Source: Brachybacterium ginsengisoli (GTDB lineage Bacteria > Actinomycetota > Actinomycetes > Actinomycetales > Dermabacteraceae). From it: a stretch of DNA of 64,000 nt. The notes under the pieces are model-generated. The model was given only the letters and a program-made list of their open reading frames with translations. It made no database searches and was not told the origin of the DNA. The DNA lies in the NCBI RefSeq assembly GCF_002407065.1, contig NZ_CP023564.1, positions 1,116,001 through 1,180,000 of the forward strand. The letters are read 5' to 3'. Positions 41,051-57,440 of this stretch are shown piece by piece (the stretch's first letter is position 1; the number at the start of each line of letters is the position of its first letter). The position numbers were made by a program, and so were the translations under genes.

Positions 41051-41058
41051 CACCTCCC

Positions 41059-42144
41059 GTGGCTCTAACTATCGGAATCGTGGGACTGCCCAACGTCGGC
41101 AAGTCCACCCTCTTCAACGCCCTCACCCGCGCCGAGGTCCTCGCCGCGAACTACCCGTTCGCGACGATCGACCCCAATGTCGGCGTGGTCCCGCTGCCCG
41201 ACTCGCGGCTCGCCGACCTGGCGACCATCTTCGACAGCCAGAAGCTGCTGCCCGCGACCGTCTCCTTCGTGGACATCGCCGGAATCGTCAAGGGAGCGAG
41301 CGAGGGGGAGGGGCTGGGGAACAAGTTCCTCGCCAACATCCGTGAGGCAGACGCGATCTGCCAGGTCACCCGCGCCTTCGCCGATCCCGACGTGACCCGT
41401 GTGGACGGCTCGGTGACGCCCTCGGGGGACATGGAGACCATCACCACCGAGCTGATCCTCGCCGATCTCCAGACCATCGAGAATTCGATGCAGCGCCTGG
41501 AGAAGGACACCAAGCGCGGCCTCGTCGACGCCGCCGTGCTGGAGAATGTCGTCAAGGCGAAGGCCCTGCTGGAGACCGGCAGGACCCTCTACCAGGGCGC
41601 CGTGGACGCGGGCATCGACATCGCCGCGATCCGCGAGCTGCAGCTCATGACCGCCAAGCCCTTCATCTACGTGTTCAACACCGATGAGGAGGGCCTCGCC
41701 GACAAGGCCTCGCAGGACGCCCTGCGCAAGCTCGTGGCCCCCGCGGAGGCGATCTTCCTCGACGCCAAGTTCGAGTCCGAGCTGATCGAGCTCGACGAGG
41801 ACGAGGCTGCCGAGATGCTCGAGTCCACCGGCCAGGAGGAGTCCGGGCTCGCCCAGCTCGCCCGTGTCGGCTACGACACCCTCGGCCTGCAGTCGTACCT
41901 GACCGCCGGCCCCAAGGAGTCCCGCGCCTGGACCATCCCCAAGGGAGCCACCGCACCCCAGGCCGCCGGCGTCATCCACACCGACTTCGAGCGCGGCTTC
42001 ATCAAGGCCGAGATCGTCTCCTTCGACCAGCTCATGGAGGCAGGCTCCATGGCCGAGGCCAAGGCCAAGGGCTGGGTGCGCATCGAGGGCAAGGAGTACG
42101 TCATGAAGGACGGCGACGTGGTGGAATGGAGATTTTCGCTCTAA
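41059..42144 (+). CDS. ychF: Redox-regulated ATPase YchF
   Basis: A 361-residue Obg-like P-loop protein that binds ATP and contacts the ribosome. G1 is GLPNVGKS (9-16), then switch motif FATIDPNVG, VDIAGIVKGASEGEGLGNKF and a TGS domain at the C terminus. The last residues are VVEWRFSL, whereas the family normally ends VEFRFNV; the last codons (TGG AGA TTT TCG CTC TAA) are unusually AT-rich next to GC-rich codons. This fits replacement of the 3' end by an inserted element, because copies reading VEFRFNV-stop lie downstream at 45228 and 50048. Confidence 0.95.
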   Translation: MALTIGIVGLPNVGKSTLFNALTRAEVLAANYPFATIDPNVGVVPLPDSRLADLATIFDSQKLLPATVSFVDIAGIVKGASEGEGLGNKFLANIREADAICQVTRAFADPDVTRVDGSVTPSGDMETITTELILADLQTIENSMQRLEKDTKRGLVDAAVLENVVKAKALLETGRTLYQGAVDAGIDIAAIRELQLMTAKPFIYVFNTDEEGLADKASQDALRKLVAPAEAIFLDAKFESELIELDEDEAAEMLESTGQEESGLAQLARVGYDTLGLQSYLTAGPKESRAWTIPKGATAPQAAGVIHTDFERGFIKAEIVSFDQLMEAGSMAEAKAKGWVRIEGKEYVMKDGDVVEWRFSL

Positions 42145-42151
42145 CGTCTGG
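42121..42151 (+). repeat. Attachment-like site 1: modified 3' end of ychF
   Basis: GTGGAATGGAGATTTTCGCT and then CTAACGTCTGG. It corresponds to GTGGAGTTCCGCTTCAACGT-CTAG at sites 4 and 6, sharing AACGTCT[A/G]G at the end. It marks the border between backbone and accessory DNA. Confidence 0.65.
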
Positions 42152-42446
42152 GGTGCGCCCCTTGGCATGAGGTTACTTTCCGCGGAACTCCCGCTGTTGT
42201 AGACGTCGAAGGGGAAGCGTGGAAATCCTAGTTGTTTCCTGCAGGAAGCAAAGCGAAGTGACCCACGACGCCCCGCCACCAGACTGCCATGATGACCCTG
42301 ATCGGCGAAGTTCTCGCCGATCCAGGCTTTGCTCACTCGGACCTGCTCAGCGTCGCCCACTCGGAGAGCTTGCAGTTAGGTCGACGCGCGTCGAATGCTG
42401 AAAGATCGTCTTGGCTGCGTCGGCCCCTGCATCCTCACACCCTGTC
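42152..42446. other. Gene-free, A+T-richer stretch after ychF
   Basis: No frame shows similarity to a known family or a convincing start. Base composition drops visibly relative to ychF. It may contain debris of earlier insertions. Confidence 0.5.
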
Positions 42447-43469
42447 TTACCCGATCGTGGAGAGGAAGCTGCTGTAGTCGTCGATGGCTCTGGGAGCGAA
42501 GATCGCTCGTGGCCAGAAGATCGCGGCGGCCAGTCCGATCGCGTCATTGTCTTCCATCGCGGTGCGGGCGAGTGAGTGTGCACCGTCAAGTCGCGAGACT
42601 GTCAGGTGCGGGCCGAAGGTTGATCTGTAGACATCTTCGGTCTCGGCTACGTCGACGTTCCTGTCGTGCAATCCCACCATCAGGTGCACGGGGATCTCTC
42701 GGGTGCCTGCGGCGACAAGATCGGACTCTGCGTCCGCGCCGAAGTTCCGCATGACGAAGCGCCAGCGGTCTTTGCTCATCGGGTCGGCGGTGTCCGTCGT
42801 TGCTAAGTAGTCCTCGTAGGATGCTCGCTGTTCGAGGAGCTTGCGCGTGTGGTCGCTTTCCTCTACCGCGCGTTCGCGCTCTTGCGTGCTTGCTTTGTCA
42901 TGGTCGAGTTCGGCAAGGAGATTGAAGCGGCCCTGCCGTAGCCAGTTGATCGCCGGGCTGACGGCAACTACTCCATCGACATCCGCGCGGGCGGCGACGA
43001 CTTTGGGGAGCACCCACCCGGCCTGGCTGGCACCCCACAGAACGATTGTGTCGGTAGGGACATCATCGCGGGCCTGGGCCCAGTCGAGCACTGCCTCGAC
43101 CTCAGTGGCCCGGTCGCTCATTGACTGCGACAGCCAGTCCCCATCTGATCCTCCAACGCCTGGCTTGCTCCACGAGATGGTCGCGAAGCCGGCATCGGCT
43201 GCGCCTTCGAACCAGGCGTCGTAGAGGCCATCCTGTGTGGCTTCGGCGGCGGCGTCCCCGTGAACCATCAGAACGACACCTCTGGCAGTTCCGTCGTCGG
43301 GGAGCGTCATCACGCCGTCGAGGTTGCCTTCCGGCCCGGGAATGGAGACCCGGCGCTCTGAGAAGCGGAAGTCGTTGCCCACGAGGGCGACCCCGGTCAG
43401 GGCAACGAGTGCCGTCACGAGCGCAACTGCAGCGACGCGCAAGGATCGAGTATGTATCGGAATGATCAC
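42447..43469 (-). CDS. Alpha/beta hydrolase with N-terminal membrane anchor
   Basis: A 340-residue protein. Residues ~9-30 are hydrophobic (signal anchor or uncleaved signal). The hydrolase core has the oxyanion segment VVLMVHGDAAAE, nucleophile elbow LWGASQAGWVLP with the catalytic Ser, an acid in GLHDRNVDV and the His in LDGAHSLART. It resembles the DLH/prolyl-oligopeptidase-like esterases; the substrate is unknown and it probably acts outside the membrane. Codon use is less GC-biased than the backbone. GTG start at 43469, divergent from a GNAT gene. Confidence 0.82.
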   Translation of the reverse strand: MIIPIHTRSLRVAAVALVTALVALTGVALVGNDFRFSERRVSIPGPEGNLDGVMTLPDDGTARGVVLMVHGDAAAEATQDGLYDAWFEGAADAGFATISWSKPGVGGSDGDWLSQSMSDRATEVEAVLDWAQARDDVPTDTIVLWGASQAGWVLPKVVAARADVDGVVAVSPAINWLRQGRFNLLAELDHDKASTQERERAVEESDHTRKLLEQRASYEDYLATTDTADPMSKDRWRFVMRNFGADAESDLVAAGTREIPVHLMVGLHDRNVDVAETEDVYRSTFGPHLTVSRLDGAHSLARTAMEDNDAIGLAAAIFWPRAIFAPRAIDDYSSFLSTIG

Positions 43470-43498
43470 GAGCGTATAATATCTGATAGATTAAGCGC
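43470..43498. promoter_or_regulatory. AT-rich divergent promoter with consensus TATAAT
   Basis: TATAAT at 43475-43480 is a perfect -10 for the GNAT gene (ATG 43499). The overlapping ATCTGATAGAT (43481-43491) is a small inverted repeat that could be an operator, plausibly for the PaaX-like regulator encoded in the same operon. Confidence 0.5.
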
Positions 43499-44086
43499 AT
43501 GCATGAGGTGATCATCAGCAGAGGGATCGGTGACAGCGAGCGATCGCGTGTCGCGGAGCTGTACTGGGAGGCATTCGCTCGGAAGCTGCGTCCCGGCTTC
43601 CGCGATGATCAGACCGGCGTCCAGGCAGTGAAGGCCGGGTTGCAGTCGGAGAATGTGCTCGTCGCTCGTCGGCAGGGGGCGCTGCTCGGCGTCTGTGGCT
43701 TTTACGGCGCGAAGTCTGGGGCAGTCGACTTGAAGTGGTCGAGTCTGCGTCGCGCGCTGACCATTTCAGCTGCCGCGCGTGCAAGCACCGTTCTTGCAGT
43801 GCTGTCGAGGTCCACTTGCTCGGACGCCCTCGTGCTGGATGGCATCTGCGTCGACCGAGCCGCGCGGGGCCTCGGCATCGGCACCGCATTACTCAACGCG
43901 GCGAGCAGCTATGCGCGAAGTATAGACGTGCGGAGAGTGCGCCTGTCCGTCGTGGACAGCAACCCTCGTGCACGGGCACTCTATGAACGTCAAGGGTTCA
44001 GGCCCGTCGGCGGAGGGGCGCTCGGATTCCTTTCGGTTGTGTACGGCTTCGATGGGTACACGACGATGGAACTGAAGGTTGTGTGA
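43499..44086 (+). CDS. GNAT-family N-acetyltransferase
   Basis: A 195-residue acetyltransferase with the acetyl-CoA loop DRAARGLGIGTALLNAA (motif A) and LSVVDSNPRARALYERQGFRP (motif B). The substrate is unknown. Its stop overlaps the regulator gene by four bases (GTGA), so they are co-translated. Preceded by a consensus -10 only ~20 bases upstream; no clear ribosome-binding site. Confidence 0.87.
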   Translation: MHEVIISRGIGDSERSRVAELYWEAFARKLRPGFRDDQTGVQAVKAGLQSENVLVARRQGALLGVCGFYGAKSGAVDLKWSSLRRALTISAAARASTVLAVLSRSTCSDALVLDGICVDRAARGLGIGTALLNAASSYARSIDVRRVRLSVVDSNPRARALYERQGFRPVGGGALGFLSVVYGFDGYTTMELKVV

Positions 44087-44898
44087 TGGACATGCAGATC
44101 ACCCCCCGGACTCTCGTCGAAGCTTTCCTGCCCTTCGAGGGCGAGGTGTCGTTGGCCGAGGTGTACGCCGTGGCCAATCTTGCAGGTCTCGAGGACCAGC
44201 CTGTACGTTTGGCGATCCGTCGCCTCGTCGCTGCAGGCGGTGTAGTGCAGCATGGCAGGGGACGGGCAGGGAGCCTGACTCTCACTGGCACTGGCCTCCG
44301 GCGTCTGCAGCGAGACCGGCAGAGCCTCGCACTTGCCTTCGCCCAGGATGCTGGCGAAGTGAGGTGGGACGGGAGCTGGCTCCTGATAGCTGTCAGCGCG
44401 CCCGAGGCAGATCGCCACGTCCGCGACAGTCTGCGCCGAGAACTCCTGAAGCTGGGAGCAGCCACAATCTCGACAGGCCTTTACGCCAGCCCGCACGACC
44501 TCCGCGATATGTTGTCCGCGGATTCCATGCGGTACGTCGCGACCGCCACCACGGCTGATCTCTCGGTGCGGGGCGTGAACGACCCACTCGTGATCGCAGA
44601 GATGCTCTGGCCTAAGGCCTCCATCATCGAGCCCTATCAGGGCATCCAAGACGCCATCGCCCAAGAAGCCGATACCTCCTCACTGCCGAAAGAGGTCCGA
44701 CTGCTCATACTTGCTGAAGCGCTTGAACGTGCGATGAGAGACGACCCTCTGGTCCCTCCTGAACTGAGAAGCTGCACGTGGCCGCCAACCAAGGTTCGTG
44801 AGGAGTGGGCACACCGCTGGGAAGAGCTCAGCACTGACGGCGGAACAACGATCTACTCGGGTTGGTGGCCACCTGCACAGGCCTCCGCGCTTCTATAG
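44083..44898 (+). CDS. PaaX-family transcriptional regulator
   Basis: A 271-residue protein matching PaaX layout: an N-terminal winged helix (RTLVEAFLPFEGEVSLAEVY ... VRLAIRRLVAAGGVV), a central domain with RWDGSWLLIAVSAPEADRHVR and LGAATISTGLYASPHDL, and the C-terminal segment DPLVPPELRSCTWPP typical of PaaX-C. PaaX represses phenylacetate degradation genes using phenylacetyl-CoA; here no such genes are near, so the ligand is unknown. Start at GTG 44083 or ATG 44086. Confidence 0.85.
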   Translation: MMDMQITPRTLVEAFLPFEGEVSLAEVYAVANLAGLEDQPVRLAIRRLVAAGGVVQHGRGRAGSLTLTGTGLRRLQRDRQSLALAFAQDAGEVRWDGSWLLIAVSAPEADRHVRDSLRRELLKLGAATISTGLYASPHDLRDMLSADSMRYVATATTADLSVRGVNDPLVIAEMLWPKASIIEPYQGIQDAIAQEADTSSLPKEVRLLILAEALERAMRDDPLVPPELRSCTWPPTKVREEWAHRWEELSTDGGTTIYSGWWPPAQASALL

Positions 44899-44904
44899 GG
44901 GTGT

Positions 44905-44933
44905 CAGGAACGGCTTGGTGGCAGTTTCGGCTT
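44905..44933 (+). repeat. Attachment-like site 2 (degenerate), after the PaaX-like gene
   Basis: AGGAACGGCTTGGTGGCAGT then TTCGGCTT keeps the order GGAAC..TGGTGG.AGTT.CGGCTT of the better-preserved sites. It begins 7 bases after the PaaX stop codon. Weakest of the ten copies. Confidence 0.4.
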
Positions 44934-45227
44934 AGGCCGCGATGGCGAGCCTCGCGTGGACGAGTCGGGCCGACCGATCCTCACGTACCCGATCAACACG
45001 TTGCTGGGGGCGTGGCCGGGAGGTGAAGTGGACCTCCGTGGACACGCATGTTGGTCGTCAACTGCAGTTGGCTTCACGTGCCGGAACTTGGTGGAGCTCG
45101 GGTCTCCAAACCGACATCTCGCGGCGGGAAGGTCGAGCCCAAGGTAGCGCTGTCCTTCGGCTCGCTCGTTGGTCTGTTCAGCCAGTTGCGCCGTTCACGC
45201 GCAGACTGCCCTACGTGTGGGCATGTG
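44934..45227. other. Gene-free segment between attachment-like sites 2 and 4
   Basis: No recognised gene. The only notable content is site 3 and, at the end, an open frame running into site 4 that ends CGHVVEFRFNV-stop, a YchF-like tail without the rest of the gene. Confidence 0.5.
45078..45102 (+). repeat. Attachment-like site 3
   Basis: GTGCCGGAACTTGGTGGAGC then TCGGG. It matches the consensus GTGCCGGAACTCGGTGGAGT; the codons read N-L-V-E-L. The left flank GCAGTTGGCTTCAC resembles the flank of site 6. Confidence 0.55.
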
Positions 45228-45253
45228 GTGGAGTTCCGGTTTAACGTCTAGCG
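45228..45253 (+). repeat. Attachment-like site 4: YchF-type 3' end before the first higBA module
   Basis: GTGGAGTTCCGGTTTAACGT then CTAGCG reads V-E-F-R-F-N-V-stop, the normal YchF C terminus. The DNA from here into higB (about 60 bases) is similar to that after site 6, so the two higBA modules share the site and promoter region. Confidence 0.75.
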
Positions 45254-45284
45254 TTATTGACGCCGGTCGTTATGTCCTGGTCTC

Positions 45285-45566
45285 GTGATCAGATCGTTCG
45301 GGAGCAAGGACACCGAACGATTGTGGCGTCGTGAGCGAGTGCGCTCGATCGATCATCGGATCCATCGGGTCGCACTGCGCAAGCTTCGTCAGGTGGGATC
45401 GGCGGAGTCCATCGAGGATCTTCGGGTCCCGCCGGGCAACCGGCTCGAAGCGCTGAAGGGCGACCGCGCCGGGCAGCACAGCATCAGGATCAACGACGAG
45501 TGGCGGATCTGGTTCGTGCGGACCGACGCAGGACCGGAGGAGGTGGAGATCGTTGACTACCACTGA
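45285..45566 (+). CDS. higB: HigB-type toxin (RelE/ParE superfamily mRNA interferase)
   Basis: A 93-residue toxin with the HigB pattern: MIRSFGSKDTERLWRRE, LRKLRQV, LRVPPGNRLEALKGDRAGQH and SIRINDEWRIWFV, ending VEIVDYH. HigB cleaves mRNA on the ribosome and is neutralised by HigA. The toxin comes first in the operon, the usual HigBA order, and overlaps higA by 14 bases. The gene begins 31 bases after attachment-like site 4. Confidence 0.93.
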   Translation: MIRSFGSKDTERLWRRERVRSIDHRIHRVALRKLRQVGSAESIEDLRVPPGNRLEALKGDRAGQHSIRINDEWRIWFVRTDAGPEEVEIVDYH

Positions 45567-45855
45567 GAAGATTGCCCCGATCCACCCTGGGGAGGTCCTC
45601 ATGGAGGACTTCATCGAGGGCTTCGGGATCACGCAGAACAAGCTCGCCGTGTCGATCGGCGTCCCGCCTCGGCGGATCAACGAGATCGTGCATGGCAAGC
45701 GGGGGATCACGGCGGACACCGCGCTCCGGCTCGGCAAGCTCTTCGGCACCACCGCACAGTTCTGGCTGAACCTGCAGACGCTCTACGACCTCGACCTCGC
45801 AGAGGATCGCGTGGCTGAGCAGATCGACGCCATCGTGCCGCTGCAATCCGCATGA
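45553..45855 (+). CDS. higA: HigA-type antitoxin (XRE helix-turn-helix)
   Basis: A 100-residue antitoxin with IHPGEVLMEDFIEGFGITQN, the helix-turn-helix LAVSIGVPPRRINEIVHGKRG and ITADTALRLGKLFGTTAQFW, the classic HigA/VapI signature. The start is a TTG at 45553 inside higB, preceded by an ideal AGGAGGTGG ribosome-binding site about 9 bases upstream. It binds HigB and represses the operon. Confidence 0.92.
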   Translation: MTTTEKIAPIHPGEVLMEDFIEGFGITQNKLAVSIGVPPRRINEIVHGKRGITADTALRLGKLFGTTAQFWLNLQTLYDLDLAEDRVAEQIDAIVPLQSA

Positions 45856-46346
45856 CCTTCAGCGGGATGGACGCCGCTGAGGTAGTACGAGTCGTTGCCT
45901 GGCTCGAGGAGCGATCAGTCGTCTACCAGGTCAACGGCGGATGGGCCGTTGACGCTCTGCACGGTTCCCAGACCAGATCGCATGGTGATCTGGATGTGTT
46001 CGTCGACTCGACGACGGTCGACGCCCTCATGGAATGGTTGCTCGGTCGCGGATACAGCATCGTGGAGGACTGGCGTCCGATCCGAGTTGAGCTGCGCGCC
46101 GGCGACAGGGCGGTCGACATCCATCCGATGGACGTGGACTGTGTCGGCGACGGGGTCCAGCAGGGCTTCGGTGAAGACTCGTTCGTCCACCGAGCGCGCG
46201 AGCGCGCGGTCGGAGTGATCGGAGATCGCTCGGTAGTTGTCGCGTGCGCCGCGCGACTCATGGCGCTGAGGCTCGGTTACGACCTCCGGCCGGAGGACCG
46301 CCACGATCTCGACGTGCTTGGGAGGTTGGTCGCCGACCACTCTTGA
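45852..46346 (+). CDS. Nucleotidyltransferase (ANT(2'')/Lnu-like fold)
   Basis: A 164-residue protein with YQVNGGWAVDALHGSQTRSH then GDLDVFVD, the active-site pattern of antibiotic nucleotidyltransferases such as ANT(2'')-Ia and LnuA, and later RAVDIHPMDVD. It overlaps higA by four bases (ATGA), so it is the third gene of the toxin-antitoxin operon. It could modify an aminoglycoside or lincosamide, or act as a third TA component that modifies the toxin or tRNA; sequence alone does not decide. Confidence 0.8.
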   Translation: MTFSGMDAAEVVRVVAWLEERSVVYQVNGGWAVDALHGSQTRSHGDLDVFVDSTTVDALMEWLLGRGYSIVEDWRPIRVELRAGDRAVDIHPMDVDCVGDGVQQGFGEDSFVHRARERAVGVIGDRSVVVACAARLMALRLGYDLRPEDRHDLDVLGRLVADHS

Positions 46347-46381
46347 GGCCCGTGGCGGGCAGTTGACGCAGATGGTTGTCC

Positions 46382-46425
46382 GTGCCGGAACTCAGTGGAG
46401 TTCCGCTTCTCAAACTAACGTCTGG
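46382..46425 (+). repeat. Attachment-like site 5, after the nucleotidyltransferase gene
   Basis: GTGCCGGAACTCAGTGGAGT, then TCCGCTTCTCAAAC and TAACGTCTGG. The hairpin arms CGGAACTC/GAGTTCCG are intact. Codons read V-E-F-R-F-S-N-stop. Like site 1 it ends TAACGTCTGG rather than AACGTCTAG. Confidence 0.7.
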
Positions 46426-46644
46426 TGAGGTCTGACGGGCAACGGCTGCACATCGCCACATTCCACGTCCCCGTCGATCGGGACGTCGAGCCGTCCGAGC
46501 GCATCTACGACGGCCTAGTGTTGAGTTAGGCACTCTGTACGCGCGGCGCGAATCCTGCCCGCTGGCACGGCGTTGGTTTGATCGAAGAAGGTCTCTTGTC
46601 TACCTCCTGAACCGCTGTGCCTCTCCGAAGCTCGTGGCACTCGC
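46426..46644. other. Gene-free segment
   Basis: Nothing recognisable between attachment-like site 5 and the TetR stop codon apart from a TTGAGTTAGGCACTC-like AT-rich patch. Confidence 0.4.
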
Positions 46645-47334
46645 CTACTGCAGCTTCTCAACCCTGCTCAACCGGCCGAGCCATTCGATGAGGAGCTGGG
46701 TCTCCGCCCTGCCGAGGACATCCGGTTGTGCTGCAGCGAGCTCGATGGCAGTGGTGAGCGAGTCGTTGTCTCGTGTTCCCTTGCCGGTGATCGCCGAGAT
46801 AGCGCCTTCACGGACAGTTTGAGACAGGGCAGGATCCGGCGCTGCCAGGATGATCTGGCGCAGGGTGACGCCGATGTTGGTCACTAGGATGTGCGCGGCA
46901 GCCTGCTCAGAGGGCACCAGAAGCCTGCCCTGTTCGGCGGCCCGCGCCGTGAGCGCGCGCAGGATCTCGCTGGGACGGGACTGCGCCTCGGGGGAGTGCC
47001 CAGGGCGGACCTTCCCGTACATCAGAGTGTAGAACCCGGGGTTGGCCAGACCGAAGGCGACGTGGGCATCCCAGCCGGCACGGATGTCCTGGATGGGATC
47101 GCCCGAGGACTCCATCGACGACTTCTCGTTCAGGTAGAGGTCGAACCCGTGCTCGATGACAGCGTCGATCAGCCCTTGCTTGGAGCCGAAGAAGTGGTAG
47201 AGCGTCGGCATCTTCACCCCGACTGCGTCGCACACCGCGCGCAGGGAGAACTCCTCGCCGGGGGCGGCGGCGATGAGGTCGGCGGCTGCCGCTATCAGTC
47301 GCTCCCGTGTATCGCTTGTCGGTGCTCCTGTCAT
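46645..47334 (-). CDS. TetR-family transcriptional regulator
   Basis: A 229-residue repressor with the N-terminal DNA-binding domain TRERLIAAAADLIAAAPGEE, FSLRAVCDAVGVKMPTLYHF and FGSKQGLIDAVIEHGFDLYL. The C-terminal ligand domain is not diagnostic. It is divergent from an SDR gene across a 63-base gap that holds a TGCTAC/GTAGCA operator, so it most likely represses the SDR-SnoaL pair and itself. Confidence 0.92.
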   Translation of the reverse strand: MTGAPTSDTRERLIAAAADLIAAAPGEEFSLRAVCDAVGVKMPTLYHFFGSKQGLIDAVIEHGFDLYLNEKSSMESSGDPIQDIRAGWDAHVAFGLANPGFYTLMYGKVRPGHSPEAQSRPSEILRALTARAAEQGRLLVPSEQAAAHILVTNIGVTLRQIILAAPDPALSQTVREGAISAITGKGTRDNDSLTTAIELAAAQPDVLGRAETQLLIEWLGRLSRVEKLQ

Positions 47335-47336
47335 AG

Positions 47337-47358
47337 TGCTACGTTAGCGTATGTAGCA
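47337..47358. promoter_or_regulatory. Probable TetR operator
   Basis: TGCTAC at 47337-47342 and GTAGCA at 47353-47358 form a 6-bp inverted repeat with a 10-base spacer; inside it TACG/CGTA adds a second symmetry. It sits beside the regulator start. TAATAC at 47362-47367 may be the -10 of the SDR operon. Confidence 0.6.
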
Positions 47359-47397
47359 GAGTAATACTGTTGCATATCAACGATATGGAGGGCTGTC

Positions 47398-48153
47398 ATG
47401 GCCGATCACACGCTCAACGGCAAGAACGTCCTGATCGCGGGCGGCGCGAAGAACCTCGGCGGGCTGGTCGCTCGTCAAGCAGCCGAGGCCGGCGCGAACG
47501 TCGCGATCCACTACAACTCCGACTCCAGTCGCGCGGACGCGGAGCAGACGCTGGCCGCCGTCGAAGCGGCTGGAGGCAAGGGCGCGGTGTTTCAGGGGGA
47601 CCTCACGGTTCCGGCGAACGTGGCCGAACTGTTCGCCGACGCTGAGGCGGCTCTGGGGACGATCGATGTCGCGGTGAACACGGCGGGCAAGGTGCTGCGC
47701 AAGCCGATCGTGGAGACCACCGAGGACGAGTACGACTCGATGTTCGACATCAACTCCAAGGCCGCTTACTTCTTCATCCAGGAGGCCGGCAAGAACCTCG
47801 CCGACGGCGGCAAGATCATCACCATCGTCACCGCGCTGCTGGCCGCGTTCACCGACGGCTACTCCACCTACGCCGGAGGCAAGTCGCCGGTGGAGCACTT
47901 CACTCGCGCCGCGGCCAAGGAGTTCGCCGACCGAGGCATCTCCGTCACCGCGATCGCGCCCGGTCCGATGGACACGCCGTTCTTCTACGGCCAGGAGACC
48001 CCGGAGCGGGTCGAGTTCCACAAGTCGCAGGGTATGGGCGGTCAGCTCACGAAGATCGAGGACATCGCCCCGATCGTCCGCTTCCTCGCCTCCGAGGGCT
48101 GGTGGATCACCGGCCAGACGATCTTCGCCAACGGCGGATACACCACCCGCTGA
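47398..48153 (+). CDS. Short-chain dehydrogenase/reductase
   Basis: A 251-residue classical SDR. Cofactor motif is GGAKNLGG (a variant of TGxxxGxG), with NTAG at the nucleotide site and catalytic YAGGK (Y-x3-K). It ends with the usual ASEGWWITGQTIFANGGYTTR. Good ribosome-binding site GGAGG 6 bases before the ATG. Substrate unknown; expressed with a SnoaL-like gene and probably controlled by the divergent TetR protein. Confidence 0.92.
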   Translation: MADHTLNGKNVLIAGGAKNLGGLVARQAAEAGANVAIHYNSDSSRADAEQTLAAVEAAGGKGAVFQGDLTVPANVAELFADAEAALGTIDVAVNTAGKVLRKPIVETTEDEYDSMFDINSKAAYFFIQEAGKNLADGGKIITIVTALLAAFTDGYSTYAGGKSPVEHFTRAAAKEFADRGISVTAIAPGPMDTPFFYGQETPERVEFHKSQGMGGQLTKIEDIAPIVRFLASEGWWITGQTIFANGGYTTR

Positions 48154-48182
48154 GCTCGACCCTACGAAATAAGGAGCGCCCC

Positions 48183-48512
48183 ATGGCAGCACCCACCATC
48201 CCCGAGCCCGTGGCCTCGTTCATCACCGCGGTCAACGACCACGACGAACAAGCCTTCCTCGACGCCTTCGCTCCTGACGGGACCGTCGACGACTGGGGCC
48301 GCGACTTCACTGGGCGCGAGCAGATCAAAACCTGGAGCGACAAGGAGTTCATCGGTTCGCGCGGCACCCTCGCGGTCGAGGAGGTCGACATCGCCGCTAG
48401 CACGATCACCGTCATCGGCGACTGGCGCTCCAACCACGCGAACGGCCGCTCGAAGTTCGTCTTCGACGTCGACGGCGACAAGCTCGCGAAGATGACGATC
48501 CGCGAAGGCTGA
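48183..48512 (+). CDS. SnoaL-like / NTF2-fold protein
   Basis: A 109-residue protein with the cone-shaped NTF2-like pattern: PEPVASFITAVNDHDEQAFL, DAFAPDGTVDDWGRDFTG and a C-terminal beta sheet. Such proteins are small isomerases, hydrolases or binding proteins. It follows the SDR gene by 29 bases with AAGGAG before the ATG at 48183, so the two form one operon. Confidence 0.82.
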   Translation: MAAPTIPEPVASFITAVNDHDEQAFLDAFAPDGTVDDWGRDFTGREQIKTWSDKEFIGSRGTLAVEEVDIAASTITVIGDWRSNHANGRSKFVFDVDGDKLAKMTIREG

Positions 48513-48530
48513 GAGCCGGCACGAGCGTCT

Positions 48531-48564
48531 CGAGCGGGCGTCCAGCCAGTTGGACGCCCGCTCG
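48531..48564 (+). terminator. 14-bp stem-loop after the SnoaL-like gene
   Basis: CGAGCGGGCGTCCA (48531-48544) is perfectly complementary to TGGACGCCCGCTCG (48551-48564); loop of 6 bases. Begins 18 bases after the stop codon. Confidence 0.88.
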
Positions 48565-48614
48565 TCGCTGTCGTCTTCGAGGCCCCCGCACCACACATAC
48601 GAGGTTCACCAACC

Positions 48615-49781
48615 ATGACTACCGTCCCGCTCGCCCGCATCGGGCACCGTCGATCCGAGGTCGGCCCCGTCGAGCTCTTCTTCGACCTGGTCTACGTCTT
48701 CGCCATCATCCAACTCTCGCACCTGCTCATCGAGCACCTCTCCTGGGAGGGCGCTGCCCAGACCATCGTGGTGTTCGCCGCGGTGTGGTGGGGCTGGAAC
48801 TACACCGCCTGGGCGATGAACTGGCTGGATCCGAGCCGCACCCCAGTGCAGCTGCTCTCCGGGGTGCTCATGCTCGCCGCACTGGGCATGTCGATCGCTA
48901 TACCCAGCGCCTTCGGCGACGGAGCCTGGCTCTTCGTCGGGTGCTACCTGTTCATGGGCCTCCTCCGTCCTATGTTCATGATGATCACCTACCGCGGCCA
49001 CCAGCTCGCAGCCAACTACCGCATGCTGCTGCTGTGGACCCTGCTGGCCGGCATGTTCTGGGTCCTCGGTGCGGCACTGCCCCTCGAGTGGCGGCTGGGT
49101 CTCTGGTTGATCGCGGTGCTCATCGACTACGCGGCCCCGCTCGCCCACTACCGGATCCCCGGTATCGGCGCAGCCCCCATGCACCAGTGGGACACCGACG
49201 CCGAGCACCTGGCCGAGCGCAACCGTCTCGTCTTCATCATCGCCCTGGGCGAGTCCATCCTGCTCATGGGCGGCAGCATCGTCTCCCACGGGCAGCTCAC
49301 CCCCGGCCTCGCTCTGAGCTTGATCGTCGGCTTCGCGTCCCTGTTCGTGCTCTGGTGGAACTACTTCGCCCTCGCTGGCCCTGATACCCACGGCGGGGAC
49401 TCGTCAACTGGGGCTCTCCGATCGGCCTACGCCTATGCGCATGCTTTTATGGTCTTGGGCGCGATCCTCGTCGCCGTCTCCATCGAGCTGCGGCTCTCCC
49501 ACGACCACCTCACGCCCGCAATCGTTCTCGTGACGGCCGCAGGTCCGCTCGTATACCTGGCAGGAAACCTGCTGTTCCTCCGGTCCCGATTCGGACGCCT
49601 CGCACGGTCACGATTCATCGCAGCAGCCGTGCTGGTGGGGATCATGATCGCCGCGATGCTGCTGATCGATCACCTGCCGGTGATTGCGTTGAGCGTCGCT
49701 GTACTCTCCGTGACGGCTATTCTCGCCGCCCACACCGCGTACACGACATCGAAACAGTCGGCGCTCGATAACCGGCGATGA
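48615..49781 (+). CDS. Low-temperature-requirement protein A (LtrA) family membrane protein
   Basis: A 388-residue membrane protein with about 11-12 helices. It starts with the family motif VGPVELFFDLVYVFAIIQLS and contains AERNRLVFIIALGESILLMG and LWWNYFALAGPD, both diagnostic for LtrA. LtrA was named in Listeria for growth at low temperature; its molecular role is unclear. Own transcript, because a strong terminator precedes it. Confidence 0.92.
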   Translation: MTTVPLARIGHRRSEVGPVELFFDLVYVFAIIQLSHLLIEHLSWEGAAQTIVVFAAVWWGWNYTAWAMNWLDPSRTPVQLLSGVLMLAALGMSIAIPSAFGDGAWLFVGCYLFMGLLRPMFMMITYRGHQLAANYRMLLLWTLLAGMFWVLGAALPLEWRLGLWLIAVLIDYAAPLAHYRIPGIGAAPMHQWDTDAEHLAERNRLVFIIALGESILLMGGSIVSHGQLTPGLALSLIVGFASLFVLWWNYFALAGPDTHGGDSSTGALRSAYAYAHAFMVLGAILVAVSIELRLSHDHLTPAIVLVTAAGPLVYLAGNLLFLRSRFGRLARSRFIAAAVLVGIMIAAMLLIDHLPVIALSVAVLSVTAILAAHTAYTTSKQSALDNRR

Positions 49782-50034
49782 CCTGGCAACCTCTATCTGA
49801 GATCCTTCTGCGCCCGATCGCGGTGCTCAGGAGCGAGCGACGCGCTTTGCTTTTCAACTGCGATCCTCGGTCATAGCTGGCCGACCGCATCGCGGTGAGA
49901 ATGCTCCTTTGCGTCGCCGGTGGCTATGCGCACCTGGTCTCGGCCGTGCACTGTACGAACGGATCAGAGCAACGCTCTGACCCGCGGGATGATTAGCGCT
50001 GGCAACTTGACTACTCATCGTCAGAGGTTGGCTT
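49782..50034. other. Gene-free segment before attachment-like site 6
   Basis: No frame has recognisable similarity. A+T content is higher than in the backbone. The end carries TCAGAGGTTGGCTTGTAG, the left flank of the site, which has a matching flank at site 8. Confidence 0.45.
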
Positions 50035-50073
50035 GTAGCGGAACTCGGTGGAGTTCCGCTTCAACGTCTAGCG
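50035..50073 (+). repeat. Attachment-like site 6: best-preserved copy
   Basis: CGGAACTCGGTGGAGTTCCG (50039-50058) is an 8-bp hairpin with loop GGTG, followed by CTTCAACGTCTAGCG. The codons from 50048 read V-E-F-R-F-N-V-stop with backbone-like GC-rich codons, so this copy could be the displaced original 3' end of ychF. It directly precedes the second higBA module. Confidence 0.8.
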
Positions 50074-50104
50074 TTGATGGCGGGGTCCGTTGTGCACTGG
50101 TCTA

Positions 50105-50385
50105 GTGAGCAGATCGTCCGGCAGCAAGGACACCGAGCGCGTCTGGCATGAGCAGTACGTCAAGCGCATCGACCGGACGGTGCAGCGGGCGACCCTGCGG
50201 AAGCTCGAACTGATCCATGCGGCGATTGATGTCAATGCCCTCCGGGTCCCACCGGGGCCCAGTTGGAACGACTGCTCGGGGACCGCGGTGGACAGCGCAG
50301 CATCCGCGTCAACGCGCAGTGGCGTCTCTGCTTCGTCTGGAGACAGGGAGGTGCGGACGATGTCGAACTCGTCGACTACCACTGA
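50105..50385 (+). pseudogene. HigB-type toxin gene with a one-base frameshift
   Basis: The GTG start at 50105 gives SRSSGSKDTERVWHEQYVKR through LRVPPG; then the frame must change to read AQLERLLGDRGGQRSIRVNA and QWRLCFVWRQGG to VELVDYH-stop at 50385. The change falls at the G run 50254-50257: one extra G would restore a 93-codon gene, the same length as the first HigB. Either the toxin is dead or the G run was miscalled. Confidence 0.85.
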
Positions 50386-50683
50386 GAGCGATCTGAGCGA
50401 GCCGATCCATCATCCGGGGGAGATCCTGACGGAGGATGTCATCGAGGGCTTCGGGATCACGCAGAACGAGCTCGCGGTGTCCATCGGTCTGCCGCCGCGC
50501 CGGATCAACGAGATCGTGCACGGCCAACGGGGGATCACCGCTGATACGGCGATCCGTCTGGCACGGTACTTCGGGACCTCCGAAGAGTTCTGGATGAACT
50601 TGCAGTCGAACTACGAGCTGCGGCTCGAGCGTCGCGCTCTGCGCGAGAAGGTCGCCGCGATCACGCCGTTGCATGTCGCATGA
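50360..50683 (+). CDS. HigA-type antitoxin, second copy
   Basis: A 107-residue XRE antitoxin with IHHPGEILTEDVIEGFGITQ and LAVSIGLPPRRINEIVHGQRG, very close to the first HigA over its whole length. I start at the ATG at 50360 with GGGAGGTG about 8 bases upstream; the gene overlaps the toxin frame. It is intact although its toxin partner is frameshifted. The kinase gene overlaps its stop by four bases (ATGA). Confidence 0.9.
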   Translation: MSNSSTTTESDLSEPIHHPGEILTEDVIEGFGITQNELAVSIGLPPRRINEIVHGQRGITADTAIRLARYFGTSEEFWMNLQSNYELRLERRALREKVAAITPLHVA

Positions 50684-51201
50684 CCGGGCACCTCATCATG
50701 ATCTCCGGTCTTCCCGGCGTCGGAAAGACAAGCGTTGCTGAGATCGCCGCCGCGCGCACAGGCTCGGTGCATCTGTCCATCGATGCCGTCGAGGAGTGGA
50801 TTCTCGCCTGCGGTCTGACGCGCGGATGGCAAGTCGGCGTCGCCGCGTACGAAGCGGCTCGCGCTATGGCGGAACTGAACCTTCGCCTCGGTCGCAGCGT
50901 CATCATCGATGCGGTGAACGACAGCGAGGACGCCAGGGAGACCTGGCGGGCTGCGGCCGCGCGCACCAGTTCTCGAATCGACTTCGTGCATCTGGTGGTC
51001 GCTGATGCGCAAGAGCATGAACGGAGGCTCAGCGGCAGGGATCGCGGTCTCGCCTACGTCGGCGAACCGACCTGGACGGATGTGCAGCGCCGTCGAGCCG
51101 ACTATGCCGCGTGGTCCGATGAGGTCGTGGAACTCGACACGACAGCTCGGACTGCGGATGAGGTTGCAGGCGCACTTGCCGCGCGCCTCAGCGCGAGATG
51201 A
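50680..51201 (+). CDS. P-loop kinase-like protein (zeta-toxin/CPT-like AAA fold)
   Basis: A 173-residue protein with Walker A ISGLPGVGKTSVAEIAAART at about 8-27, a putative acceptor-site Asp in LSIDAVEEW and GRSVIIDAVNDSEDARE, and an Arg-rich lid (RRLSGRDRGLAY). The layout matches small-molecule kinases such as chloramphenicol phosphotransferase and zeta toxins. It is the third gene of the second higBA operon, mirroring the nucleotidyltransferase of the first. Substrate unknown. Confidence 0.8.
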   Translation: MTGHLIMISGLPGVGKTSVAEIAAARTGSVHLSIDAVEEWILACGLTRGWQVGVAAYEAARAMAELNLRLGRSVIIDAVNDSEDARETWRAAAARTSSRIDFVHLVVADAQEHERRLSGRDRGLAYVGEPTWTDVQRRRADYAAWSDEVVELDTTARTADEVAGALAARLSAR

Positions 51202-51227
51202 GGCCGCGTCGTCGCTGATGGTTCTTC

Positions 51228-51260
51228 GTGCCGGAACTCGGTCGAGTTCAGGATCGATGC
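51228..51260 (+). repeat. Attachment-like site 7, after the kinase gene
   Basis: GTGCCGGAACTCGGTCGAGT then TCAGGATCGATGC. The left hairpin arm is intact, the right arm is GAGTTCAG. Codons read V-E-F-R-I-D-A. Begins 27 bases after the kinase stop codon. Confidence 0.65.
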
Positions 51261-51404
51261 ACAAACCGCTTGGTCAGAGCTGATCTCCAGCAGTCGATTG
51301 GCGCGAGGGCGGATCGATCTTGTGCAGTCACATCAGTGGCGGGCGATGCGTGCCGCGTGGATGCTTGTGTGGGGGAGCGACCGGGTGGCCACGCTGCTAG
51401 ATTT

Positions 51405-51420
51405 ATCTTGACAGCAAGAT
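51405..51420. promoter_or_regulatory. Inverted repeat upstream of the VOC gene
   Basis: ATCTTGACAGCAAGAT is a 6-bp inverted repeat (ATCTTG/CAAGAT) 15 bases before the ATG. The form is typical of MarR-type operators. No MarR gene is adjacent. Confidence 0.5.
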
Positions 51421-51435
51421 GAATTGGAGGCGCAG

Positions 51436-51822
51436 ATGAAGCTGCATCACGTTCAGGTTGCCATCCCTCGCGGGGAGGAGGACGAGTCTCGTCGTTTCTA
51501 TGGCGAGGCGCTCGGATTGCACGAAGTGGCCAAGCCGCCGTCGCTGGCCGGACGTGGCGGATGCTGGTTCCGCGCCTTCGACGGTGATGTGATCACCGCT
51601 GAGATTCATCTCGGCGTGGACGACCCGTTCCTTCCTGCCAAGAAGGCTCATCCCGGTCTTCTTCTCGATTCCCGTCATGAGTTAGAGGCGACGGCAGAGC
51701 GCATCGCCGATGCGGGATACGAGCTCTCCTGGGCTGAGCGCGACACCTTCGAGGGCTATGTCCGCTTCCATGCGCGCGACGGCTTCGGGAACCGCGTCGA
51801 AGTGATGACGCTCGCGGTGTGA
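51436..51822 (+). CDS. VOC-superfamily (glyoxalase/bleomycin-resistance-like) protein
   Basis: A 128-residue protein with the beta-alpha-beta-beta-beta repeats of the VOC fold: KLHHVQVAIPRGEEDESRRF, YGEALGLHEVAKPP and GYVRFHARDGFGNRVEVMTL. His at position 4-5 and the C-terminal Glu are possible metal ligands. It may bind or modify a small toxic compound; the reaction is unknown. ATG at 51436 with GGAGG upstream. It is a single-gene unit between attachment-like sites 7 and 8. Confidence 0.85.
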   Translation: MKLHHVQVAIPRGEEDESRRFYGEALGLHEVAKPPSLAGRGGCWFRAFDGDVITAEIHLGVDDPFLPAKKAHPGLLLDSRHELEATAERIADAGYELSWAERDTFEGYVRFHARDGFGNRVEVMTLAV

Positions 51823-51862
51823 CGTGAGAGCTCCTCGGGCTTCCGTCTTCAGAGGTTGCTCT

Positions 51863-51899
51863 ATGCCGGGACTCGGTCGAGTTCCGCCTCGACGCGTGA
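51863..51899 (+). repeat. Attachment-like site 8, after the VOC gene
   Basis: ATGCCGGGACTCGGTCGAGT then TCCGCCTCGACGCGTGA. Codons read V-E-F-R-L-D-A-stop. The left flank TTCAGAGGTTGCTCT closely matches the flank of site 6. Begins 41 bases after the VOC stop codon. Confidence 0.7.
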
Positions 51900-52013
51900 T
51901 CGCCTCTGCTCCGGGTGCATGCCCGCGTCGCGCGGTGCCCGGCCGGCATCGCGTGGCGGCTTGTGTGAAGGGTTGATGGGAAGGTGGCGGTAGGGCGGCG
52001 CCATCTCCAGCGG

Positions 52014-52019
52014 TAGCGT
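52014..52019 (+). promoter_or_regulatory. -10 box of a leaderless mepB-like transcript
   Basis: TAGCGT ends 6 bases before the GTG at 52026; no ribosome-binding site is seen. Confidence 0.45.
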
Positions 52020-52025
52020 TGTCTC

Positions 52026-52457
52026 GTGAACTTTCCTGCCTTCGAGACATACGCCGCCGAGATGGGGCTCGCCATCCCGATCGCGCCGGAGGAACAGAAC
52101 AGCGACTACGAGTCGGGAATCGTGGAGATCGACCGCGACACATGGCATATCCGTACCGCACGGAACACACCCACCAAACCGGGTGCATTCGTCGCCTTCT
52201 GGAGGCGAGGCGCCGATGGAGTGACGACCCCGTTCAGTGACGCTGAACCTGCCGCGGGATTGCTGGTCTTCGTGGAGCAGCTGGGCAGACGCGGCGTCTT
52301 CCGGTTCACCGCTGCGGATCTCGCCCGGCTGGGCATCACGTCGGGGGCGCGGCCCGGCAAACGTGGCTTCCGGGTGTATCCGAGTTGGTGTGTGGATCTG
52401 AACGCCGGTGCGACGGCCGCGCAACGTGCTCAGTCGTCGTCTTTCCTCACGTACTGA
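52026..52457 (+). CDS. MepB-like protein
   Basis: A 143-residue protein matching the MepB family (third gene of the Staphylococcus mepRAB operon): ESGIVEIDRDTWHIRTARNT, KPGAFVAFWRRG..TTPF and the C-terminal GKRGFRVYPSWCVDLN. MepB has a restriction-endonuclease-like fold but no established activity. No mepA or mepR gene is near. Single-gene unit between attachment-like sites 8 and 9. Confidence 0.85.
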   Translation: MNFPAFETYAAEMGLAIPIAPEEQNSDYESGIVEIDRDTWHIRTARNTPTKPGAFVAFWRRGADGVTTPFSDAEPAAGLLVFVEQLGRRGVFRFTAADLARLGITSGARPGKRGFRVYPSWCVDLNAGATAAQRAQSSSFLTY

Positions 52458-52510
52458 GCCGATCGCTGACCGCCGCTCTGCGACCGCCTGGGTGCCGTCC
52501 AGGGATGGGT

Positions 52511-52547
52511 ATGCCCTGGAACTCGGTGGAGTGGAGTGTCGATCTGC
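52511..52547 (+). repeat. Attachment-like site 9, after the mepB-like gene
   Basis: ATGCCCTGGAACTCGGTGGA then GTGGAGTGTCGATCTGC. GGAACTCGGTGGAG is intact; the right part reads V-E-W-S-V-D-L, closer to the modified ychF end (VEWRFSL) at site 1. A CCAGGG/CCCTGG stem flanks it on the left. The remaining gap to 52711 holds no gene. Confidence 0.6.
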
Positions 52548-52711
52548 AGTCCTTCGAGGATCCGGTTGCTCCACGGGATGTGGTTCTGCTGCCCCGAATG
52601 GCACCGCCTTGCGGAAACGCCACGTGACAGGACGGCCGGGGGTCGTCGACCTTGACGCGAATGGACCGAGATCGCTCGAGCAGTCTTTCGGCTGTGCGGG
52701 GCAGGAACCGA

Positions 52712-54618: not shown

Positions 54619-54717
54619 CCTCTTCTCCTTGTTCCTCAGGCGGCGTGGGCCGGCGGGGGTCGGGTGCATGGTCGTGCCCGACGGGGCGCCATGGCTCGGC
54701 ATGAATACAACGGAACC

Positions 54718-54736
54718 TATACCCCCTATGGGTATA
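54718..54736. promoter_or_regulatory. CsoR/RcnR-like operator upstream of the MFS gene
   Basis: TATACCC, a 5-base centre CCTAT and GGGTATA form a 7-bp inverted repeat; C/G-run arms framed by TATA are typical of CsoR-family (copper, formaldehyde or persulfide sensing) sites. It lies 100 bases upstream of the MFS start. No CsoR gene is in the window. The rest of 54619-55015 has no supportable gene. Confidence 0.5.
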
Positions 54737-55015
54737 TTGCCCAGTGCGCTGTCGCGGCCGATGCAGGGCTGTGCGTCATCCGGAGTCTGTGCGAGTCGCT
54801 CAGCTGTCGGGTTGAGCGTTCGGGGCGGCGGAGGCGATCAGACGGTTGTTCGTCATGCATCCGACGAGGGTGATGGTGCCGACCATCTGCCCGCGCAGCC
54901 ATGCCTCGAGGTCATTGCCGGCGAAGACGCCGGAGGGCTGTTCGCTGATGCGTTCGGACGCCCACTCCTCGTGAGCGGACGCGTCGAGGTGGTTGTGCAG
55001 ACGCTGCCAGGCGGC

Positions 55016-55417: not shown

Positions 55418-55475
55418 CCGACTCTCCTTCACATTGATGTCAAGGATACCTGTGAGAGTTCCCTCGTGCTCGGAG

Positions 55476-55497
55476 TTGACATTCACATCACTGTCAA
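55476..55497. promoter_or_regulatory. Probable MerR operator
   Basis: TTGACA at 55476-55481 and TGTCAA at 55492-55497 form a perfect inverted repeat with a 10-base spacer, the common MerR-site geometry. A second half-like element, ATTGATGTCAAGG, lies at about 55434-55446 next to the regulator start. Confidence 0.65.
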
Positions 55498-55514
55498 GGT
55501 TGGACGATGTGAGC

Positions 55515-56840: not shown

Positions 56841-57328
56841 TCACGCCGGAACGGATGCGACAGTCGAGGGCGGGTTTCGCGACGGGCCTGTCGGTCGTCG
56901 CAGCCGAGGTCGACGGCGAGATCGTGGGCATGCCCGCGAACTCGCTCGTGTCGGTCTCGCTGGATCCGCCGCTCGTGTCGCTGTCGTTCGCACACACGTC
57001 GACGACGTGGCCCGTTCTGCGGCGTGCCGAGCGGTGGGGGATCAGTGTGCTCGGGGCGGAGCAGGAGCAGGTGCTGAGCGACCTGCGTCGCCCGACCGCC
57101 GAGCGCTTCGACGGGATCGATGCCGAGGTATCAGGGCAGGCCGCGTTCGTGCGCGGGTCCCTGGCGACGATCGAGGTCGAGCCCTTGACCGCCATCGAGG
57201 CCGGTGACCGTACGCTCATGCTTCTCGAGGTGCATGCGCTCGACCGTGACGAATCGCAGGAGCCGCTCGTGTTCTTCGACAGTCGCGTGCACAGGATCGC
57301 AGCGGACCCCACGTCACCGATGGGGTGA
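56837..57328 (+). CDS. Flavin reductase (FMN-binding split-barrel)
   Basis: A 163-residue HpaC/NtaB-type reductase: RQSRAGFATGLSVVAAEVDG, GMPANSLVSVSLDPPLVSLS and the C-terminal FFDSRVHRI. It supplies reduced FMN to the monooxygenase encoded just upstream, whose stop overlaps its GTG start (GTGA). A DxxH-like end and the N-terminal strand order fit the family. Confidence 0.92.
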   Translation: MITPERMRQSRAGFATGLSVVAAEVDGEIVGMPANSLVSVSLDPPLVSLSFAHTSTTWPVLRRAERWGISVLGAEQEQVLSDLRRPTAERFDGIDAEVSGQAAFVRGSLATIEVEPLTAIEAGDRTLMLLEVHALDRDESQEPLVFFDSRVHRIAADPTSPMG

Positions 57329-57391
57329 ATGCCCGACAGGCGGGAGCGCACCGACGCCCGACGCCGACCGGAACGTCACCTGAGCAGGCCG

Positions 57392-57440
57392 CAGAGGGCG
57401 TTCCGAGTCGGTGCTCGGTGGAGTCCCGTCCCGCCGTCGG
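57392..57440 (+). repeat. Attachment-like site 10, after the flavin reductase gene
   Basis: CAGAGGGCGTTCCGAGTCGG, TGCTCGGTGGAGTCCCG and TCCCGCCGTCGG align without gaps over 37 bases to the flank and core of site 6. Codons read V-E-S-R-P-A-V. It is degenerate but in the expected position, 64 bases after the last stop codon, and marks the likely right border of the accessory region. Confidence 0.5.

Follow-up and report, generated by a model that had tools for sequence, protein, structure and literature searches.

A gene-cassette array at the 3' end of ychF in Brachybacterium ginsengisoli, very probably built by large serine recombinases of a ychF-linked clade

We analysed a 64-kb stretch (the window) of the 3.95-Mb genome of Brachybacterium ginsengisoli, a single contig (NZ_CP023564.1), in which the 3' end of ychF is followed by an array of small gene units bounded by copies of one conserved site. 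The ychF 3' flanks of 33 relatives and 5 further site-bearing stretches were taken for comparison, giving 34 ychF loci and 39 regions with the window included. A conservation profile over the relatives, with half-sites de-replicated by cluster (as also in the box-spacing and arm-matching analyses below), delimited the site to 49 bp, from hairpin position -16 to +33. The site consists, in order, of a left outer box (AGAGGTT), an inner box (CGGAACNC), a GT core, a second inner box (GAGTTCCG) and a right outer box (AACGTST). The original prediction had described a hairpin whose right arm reads V-E-F-R-F-N-V, the YchF C terminus. The hairpin is real and several copies do encode this peptide, with the window's own ychF ending in VEWRFSL; the full site, however, is larger than the hairpin, and its left outer box is not derived from ychF.

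A site matrix was trained on 123 sites of the relatives, with no site of the window's genome included, and controlled on the reverse strand of the window and on 50 simulated 64-kb sequences. This held-out matrix found seven plus-strand sites in the window, scoring between 21.6 and 62.3, together with a weak eighth at 14.3; the reverse strand reached no more than 3.3 and the simulated sequences no more than 2.1. The profile search thus recovered eight of the ten copies originally proposed (42121, 45078, 45228, 46382, 50035, 51228, 51863 and 52511), two of them weakly, while the copies at 57392 (score 3.1) and 44905 (nothing above 5 in the scan) were rejected as chance-level. Score thresholds in the other site analyses were 15, 30, 35, 40 or 44 bits, depending on the analysis. 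The array comprises the following features, with genes named by Pfam and half-site classes defined further below:

41032..42144, plus strand: ychF (PF06071 and MMR_HSR1), its 3' end the putative chromosomal target with left half B
42095..42144, plus strand: ychF junction site, core GT 42121-42122, matrix match 42112, held-out score 45.7; the right half, with its outer box at 11 nt (class Q), codes for VEWRFSL
42123..45092, plus strand: first unit, bounded by sites
42447-43469, minus strand: alpha/beta hydrolase of the first unit
43499-44086, plus strand: GNAT gene of the first unit
44083-44898, plus strand: PaaX-like gene of the first unit
45065..45114, plus strand: degenerate site, core 45091-45092, match 45082, held-out score 21.6; left half good, right half decayed
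45202..45251, plus strand: site of attR type, core 45228-45229, match 45219, held-out score 55.5; right half VEFRFNV-stop
45229..46396, plus strand: second cassette, 1168 bp, with a HigB-like toxin (45270-45566), HigA (45553-45855) and a nucleotidyltransferase (45852-46346)
46369..46418, plus strand: site, core 46395-46396, match 46386, held-out score 52.6; right half of class Q
46396..50049, plus strand: third cassette, 3654 bp, with SDR (47398-48153), SnoaL-like (48102-48512) and LtrA (48615-49781) genes
46645-47334, minus strand: TetR gene of the third cassette
50022..50071, plus strand: highest-scoring site in the window, core 50048-50049, match 50039, held-out score 62.3
50049..51242, plus strand: fourth cassette, with a HigA-type antitoxin and an AAA_33/CPT-like kinase (50680-51201)
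51215..51264, plus strand: site with degenerate right half, core 51241-51242, match 51232, held-out score 39.9
51242..51877, plus strand: cassette with a VOC/glyoxalase gene (51424-51822, PF00903)
51850..51899, plus strand: site, core 51876-51877, match 51867, held-out score 41.7
51877..52527, plus strand: unit with a MepB-like gene (52026-52457, PF08877)
52500..52549, plus strand: weak, decayed site, core 52526-52527, match 52517, held-out score 14.3

In the genome of the window, the sites are confined to this region and to one orientation. Allowing up to three mismatches, the hairpin CGGAACTCGGTGGAGTTCCG has six matches in the whole genome, all forward and all within the window (one of them, at 57409, was rejected as a site), and the backwards pattern, used as a control, has one. 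In a scan of the genus allowing up to two mismatches, the hairpin occurred in 24 of 38 genomes, with at least two copies in 13 of these, and the backwards control in none. Likewise, the matrix gave 139 forward matches (127 above 18 bits) and no reverse match over the 39 oriented regions. A few relatives, such as G023 and G036, have a site match away from the locus.

We found that the left and right halves of the site combine freely. When 135 sites were grouped by the DNA on each side, the same left half occurred with different right halves and vice versa. For example, ychF is joined to 20 right-half clusters across 32 genomes, one HigBA-cassette family of right ends stands behind 16 left-half clusters (leaving out one further site that overlaps a neighbour), and the left half of the site with core 46395-46396 is joined to other right halves in G004 and G036. 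The YchF C terminus varies with the right half (VEFRFNV, VEWRFSL, VEFRFAL, VEFRSGLTSGGKK and others). Comparing pairs of sites that share one side, which are not independent of each other, we found that base 9 follows the left half (identical in 63 of 66 shared-left but 17 of 23 shared-right pairs), whereas base 15 follows the right half (22 of 23 shared-right, 30 of 66 shared-left). Base 12 leans to the right (18/23 against 41/66) and is ambiguous in part of the pairs; bases 10 and 11 are near-invariant (66/66 shared-left for both; 23/23 and 22/23 shared-right). Since base 9 goes with the left half and base 15 with the right, the exchange is placed at or next to GT 10-11, the dyad centre, and thus appears to fall within two or three bases of it; the right half is conserved for 22 bp past this point. 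A pair formed by G004 and Auritidibacter (90% identical overall) was not retained as support for the crossover point: both have ychF on the left, and ungapped identity just inside is 0.48, probably owing to an indel.

Single cassettes are shared between species and orders, with breaks at the core. The second cassette of the window is 99.3% identical in G004 and 99.2% in G036, core to core over all 1168 bp, and the third is 99.6% identical in G020, core to core over all 3654 bp; in each case the neighbours differ. The third cassette also has a match in Microbacterium sp. MPKO10 (98.95% over 2190 bp, starting at the core), and the fourth has a full-length match of 88.9% in an uncultured Arachnia with other flanks. 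Two adjacent cassettes of B. massiliense recur separately, one in Microbacterium barkeri (99.1%) and the other in Thermocrispum municipale of the Pseudonocardiales (99.0%); identity is 0.98-1.00 inside and drops at the core to 0.33-0.46 outside, where the flanks are unrelated. Some named loci in this cross-species set are the same DNA as G-numbered loci and are counted twice. The original prediction, that small mobile units accrete at the ychF 3' end through site-specific recombination by an enzyme encoded outside the window, is supported by the free mixing of halves, by the two window cassettes at 99.2-99.6% and by the confinement of the sites to this region of the genome. The third cassette (3.65 kb) is also found in G023 (L113; 99.7% over 3548 bp), beside a tyrosine-integrase gene about 250 kb from ychF, so that cassettes may enter other mobile elements elsewhere in the chromosome. 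Given that distance, this gene was rejected as a candidate recombinase of the arrays.

The spacing between outer and inner boxes separates the half-sites into classes. It is 9 nt in 61 left halves (4.9 of 7 box positions matched) and 4 nt in 72 right halves (5.1 of 7), while 13 ychF ends of the VEFRSGLTSGGKK-like kind have the right outer box at 9 nt (5.5 of 7). For the LI integrase, the motif bound by the zinc-ribbon domain (ZD) lies at positions 16-24 in the phage attachment site attP and at 11-19 in the bacterial site attB, a 5-bp inward shift (Rutherford et al. 2013, PMC3783163). Because the spacings mirror this shift, we assign the left halves to P, the ordinary right halves to B' and the special ychF right halves to P'. 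In the four carriers that encode a large serine recombinase (LSR) and have both ends, the P arm agrees with the mirror image of the carrier's own P' arm at 22, 21, 17 and 10 of 27 positions, compared with 9, 11, 8 and 9 of 27 for its own B' arm. Over the eight P'-type ychF loci, own pairs of P and P' averaged 15.1 and other pairs 13.2 (permutation, 0.0087). When the 61 left halves were compared with 10 P' arms, 35 of them agreed with one of these arms at no fewer than 19 of 27 positions; with 10 B' arms, 1 of 61 did. In the window, the left half with core 46395-46396 matches the attP-type arm of G043 at 22/27, and that with core 45228-45229 is closest to the attP-type arm of G350 (16/27). The spacers between the boxes of left halves seemingly fall into subtypes matching the P' arms of different LSR elements; on this pattern, a left-half spacer may record the recombinase that delivered it.

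The same classes distinguish ychF from the internal junctions. Of 343 left halves counted, 322 remained distinct after removal of identical contexts; behind these lie 221 right halves with a B'-type box, 13 of a class Q with the outer box at 11 nt, and 88 without a clear box. A P' box was found behind none of the 322, using a rule that detects 8 of the 13 known P' arms. With no P' half behind any cassette left half, the array junctions look like attR sites, and the lack of internal P|P' is as the model below predicts, because an integrase would remove a chromosomal P|P' beside attB. The right half at ychF is usually B' (23 of the 32 junctions classed). Class Q, with a spacing that is neither that of B' (4) nor that of P' (9), accounts for 4 of 32 ychF ends and 13 of 322 distinct internal junctions; examples are

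42112-42150 and 46386-46425 of the window, and sites in G008, G011 and G029.

We further searched for the recombinase. The genome of the window has no PF00239 gene at E 0.001. It has two PF00589 genes, at 2.05 and 2.66 Mb, which we take for XerD and XerC on the basis of the genes around them. Thus neither family is present in the window, in line with the earlier statement that it holds no recombinase. In several genomes, LSR N-terminal remnants, read leftwards, abut the left half of sites. One such remnant of 57 aa was used as a query against 396 genomes of the order, with loci fetched around part of the matches, and intact relatives were found in elements at ychF. The LSR starts 9 bp past the ychF stop codon in G245 and follows ychF directly in G178; it lies within the element behind a P'-type ychF end in G244, G043, G324 and G350, and between ychF and the first internal site in G020. 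In Nonomuraea lactucae, the LSR start codon directly adjoins a site's outer box. A tree was built from 28 LSRs, leaving out partial matches to other LSRs in the genus genomes; in it, the eight that are linked to ychF or to a site form one group with 99/98 support, the 20 others falling outside, and none of 500 label shuffles did as well. Around 17 less similar LSR loci, neither ychF nor a site was present in the stretch fetched. A ychF-linked clade of LSRs thus exists, a candidate for the recombinase acting on the sites. All four full-length carrier LSRs scanned contain both PF00239 and PF07508, and the three clade LSRs compared with the NCBIfam CcrB model scored 65.7-73.0 bits (cut-off 900). 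None of the PF00589 places among the matches listed falls, by coordinates, in a fetched array. As sources of the LSR, phages and plasmids were both rejected: phage relatives among the matches listed are 31-43% identical, and neither the regions from Barnstormer and Caron nor Kumao contain a P|P' site; the 15 plasmid matches listed are all 25-32% identical.

Together, these findings make it very probable that the region is a cassette array at the ychF 3' end built by LSRs of the ychF-linked clade. The site, the free reassortment of its halves, the narrow crossover zone, the 5-bp offset, the LSR clade at ychF and the shared single cassettes can all be read from the DNA itself; from them we infer recombination as such, a clade LSR as its likely enzyme and the following carrier route. 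In this model, ychF would carry the chromosomal attB (B|B') and an LSR-encoding carrier would bring attP (P|P'), insertion giving ychF-B|P'-carrier-P|B'. YchF would be nearly unchanged, because the incoming B' or P' half supplies its last codons and stop. Internal junctions would be attR-like (P|B'), so that every cassette begins with B' and ends with P. Excision of the carrier would join attL to attR with the help of an excision factor, and use of a distal attR would take the intervening cassettes along. After transfer into the ychF of another cell, the carrier would leave by the nearest attR, with the cassettes staying behind and attB restored. The carrier route would therefore leave ychF usually with B', internal sites as P|B', P' only at ychF, and most arrays free of recombinases.

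Several observations weigh against this reading. A completely empty ychF junction was not among the 32 compared. The left half at ychF lacks a box at 4 nt (2.4 of 7) and has at most a weak one at 9 nt (4.0), and so is not a plain B half, and class Q halves, including that at the window's own ychF end, do not fit either class. The P and P' arms agree at just 10/27 in G244, 9/27 in G027 and 7/27 in G012, the latter two showing no mirror and having P'-type ychF ends without an LSR seen nearby. The box is weak in 5 of the 13 known P' arms, and one internal junction of G020 is nearly P'. As to the enzyme, the genome of the window has no serine recombinase now, so it acts in trans or was lost; G017, G024 and G037 likewise have internal sites and no PF00239 gene, which calls for an enzyme that is either supplied in trans or present only at times. 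Among the 38 genomes of the genus, a clade LSR was matched over its full length in G020 alone. An LSR in G387, 51% identical over 206 aa, shows no linkage to ychF or to a site across the 19.5 kb fetched, and the LSRs of phages Barnstormer and Caron are 42.7% identical over 72% of the query, with no P|P' site in 5.9 kb. The ychF ends of G012, G022, G027 and G032 are all of P' type without an intact LSR seen nearby; such ends are possibly non-autonomous attP-type units next to ychF.

The arrays might instead be mere decayed scars of many independent LSR elements, with the pieces between sites immobile. In favour of this, degenerate sites are common, as are LSR remnants and P'-type ychF ends lacking an LSR; yet single cassettes are about 99% identical core to core across species and orders while the DNA on either side of them differs, and left and right halves mix freely. 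We regard this as unlikely, and the core-to-core identities largely refute it. A tyrosine recombinase is a further candidate, either an integron-type integrase acting on a folded single strand, with the hairpin as its substrate, or the host XerC/XerD. Integron cassettes, too, are free of recombinases, the hairpin is by eye a good inverted repeat, and the XerC- and XerD-like genes are the sole PF00589 genes of the window's genome. Tyrosine recombinases, however, exchange over a 6-8 bp overlap, and attC exchange occurs at the outer edge, at a GTTRRRY core, whereas exchange here falls at the dyad centre within about 2-3 bp. Together with the lack of any listed PF00589 place in the fetched arrays, and with the LSR clade, the 5-bp offset and the confinement of P' to ychF left unexplained, this makes the tyrosine alternative quite unlikely. 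The integron-like character that had been proposed for the array therefore holds for its cassette logic and fails for its chemistry, as the dyad looks like a serine-recombinase type with central-dinucleotide exchange.

Another enzyme with a dinucleotide core might also move the units. IS110-type transposases are RNA-guided and exchange at a dinucleotide core; but the LSR linkage and the att-site geometry already cover the data, and Rfam recognised no RNA family at the gathering threshold in 41000-58800 of the window. We consider this very improbable, although no search aimed at such transposases was made. Even less credence can be given to the sites being ordinary terminators or repeats that resemble the ychF end by chance. 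They are indeed short inverted repeats behind genes, but they form a conserved 49-bp structure with two arms, and the confinement of the hairpins to the window, the absence of reverse sites from the 39 regions and the reassortment of halves refute this explanation.

Arrays of this kind are not confined to the genus. A pattern scan of a collection of 84,980 genomes found at least 119 loci, those listed comprising 118 from Actinomycetota and one from a metagenome-assembled genome (MAG) labelled Bacillota, probably a binning or label error. Of the 119 loci listed, 93, from at least 17 families, contain more than one site in the stretch, and none of the 119 has sites on both strands; 49 include ychF, and in all 49 the sites lie on the ychF strand and downstream, with none upstream. 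These counts do not measure prevalence, because a scan with exact patterns recovers few of the sites (27 of 93 internal ones) and only the matches listed were counted. In a survey of the order that scored only 14 candidates per genome, and so missed some, at least 115 of 396 genomes (29 of 107 genera) had a site-model match with an E value of 1e-8 or below; such a match may be to the right half alone. Across the phylum, 54 of 396 genomes matched at E 1e-6, mostly by the right half only, at native ychF ends; eight genomes besides that of the window have a match including the left half (from the list read by hand). The site also occurs on one viral contig (IMG/VR); the MAG and viral loci are L331 and L333.

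The units are short, with one to three genes, and rich in toxin-antitoxin genes. Intervals between neighbouring sites had a median of 1448 bp (n = 245, 167 below 2 kb), some loci again being counted twice, and crude gene calling placed 278 of 439 cassette genes on the array strand. Identified from ten representatives together with the window genes, the cargo clusters include HigA (41 of the 439 called genes), FitA-like antitoxins, PIN proteins, ParE, Phd/YefM, GNAT enzymes and an Abi_2 protein. In the window, the nucleotidyltransferase at 45852-46346 belongs to PF10706, a family named after aminoglycoside 2''-adenylyltransferase. In the fourth cassette, Pfam recognised no HigB domain ahead of HigA (50090-50390), where the frame looks disrupted; in the second cassette, by contrast, HigB is open. 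In G020 and G006, the P'-type elements look like defence islands because they carry type III restriction-modification genes (the restriction subunit of G006 weakly matched), located at

L085 420-4885 and L088 2261-6823.

To the right of the array, the window contains one further block:

58738..60785, minus strand: conserved genes, which we take to be SCO1664-like, DUF3090 and a phosphomutase, present in the ychF 3' flank of 8 relatives

In the compared loci, ychF was not seen joined directly to these genes. A site lies 63-115 bp ahead of them in G003, G009 and G019; the right-half cluster R3 of these three loci, grouped by shared downstream sequence alone, was not used. Site matches also occur beyond the block in G009 and G016. 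The block therefore does not mark a strict boundary: either the array can run past it, or the block can move. Two stretches of the window that flank the block (58395-58660 and 61826-62121) are 73% identical to each other.

Among known systems, the staphylococcal and enterococcal cassette chromosomes (SCC/ECC) at rlmH are the closest in anatomy, with the large serine recombinase CcrAB, att sites of about 50 bp and inverted repeats in attR; multiple attR sites are reported in 16 of 32 ECC, tandem ccrAB not being seen directly in that account (PMC6222049). The ychF arrays share with them a large serine recombinase, the 3' end of a conserved gene as target, att sites of about 50 bp and repeated attR sites, and insertion appears to restore the gene end between attL and attR, here as judged by sequence anatomy alone. 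They differ in that the target is ychF and not rlmH, the LSRs fall far under the Ccr model cut-offs, the units have a median of 1.4 kb (245 cassettes) compared with 21-78 kb for ECC (PMC6222049), and most units lack a recombinase and are spread over many actinobacterial families. With integrons they share the collinear arrangement of small cassettes, free of recombinases, that follow a fixed primary site, many toxin-antitoxin genes and cassettes common to several species; unlike integrons, the window's genome lacks an integron integrase, and the site is split between neighbours by exchange at the dyad centre, in serine-recombinase geometry. Bxb1 and phiC31 are serine integrases of the same kind as A118 LI. 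Such integrases of phages and integrative and conjugative elements also use a central dinucleotide with a distal motif shifted by 5 bp between P and B, and their genes adjoin the att site, as seen here in G245, G178, G244 and Nonomuraea; unlike in those elements, attR-bounded cargo units persist here as a long array in integrase-free genomes. The pneumococcal prophage PPH005 likewise has its attB beside ychF, but between a DUF951 gene and ychF and with apparently unrelated sequence, and the account of it describes no cassette array (PMC8637289). We found no published description of cassette arrays at ychF in the literature searched, which was covered in part.

The ychF arrays thus combine the logic of SCC/ECC islands with integron-like cassettes. 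With a travelling recombinase that apparently leaves again in most cases, actinobacteria seem to draw on a common pool of exchangeable genes, and we lean towards regarding these arrays as the Actinomycetota counterpart of the integron, with a common ychF-end site, a pool of toxin-antitoxin, defence and enzyme cassettes across orders, visiting LSRs and spacers recording the recombinase lineage. Such a system would unite SCC-type serine-recombinase islands with integron-type cassette arrays, would allow the attP, attB and attR sequences used by an LSR clade to be predicted, and would supply a simple rule to delimit gene cassettes in many genomes. For actinobacteria, it would offer a concrete route to gain and swap accessory genes at one place while leaving an important gene undisturbed.

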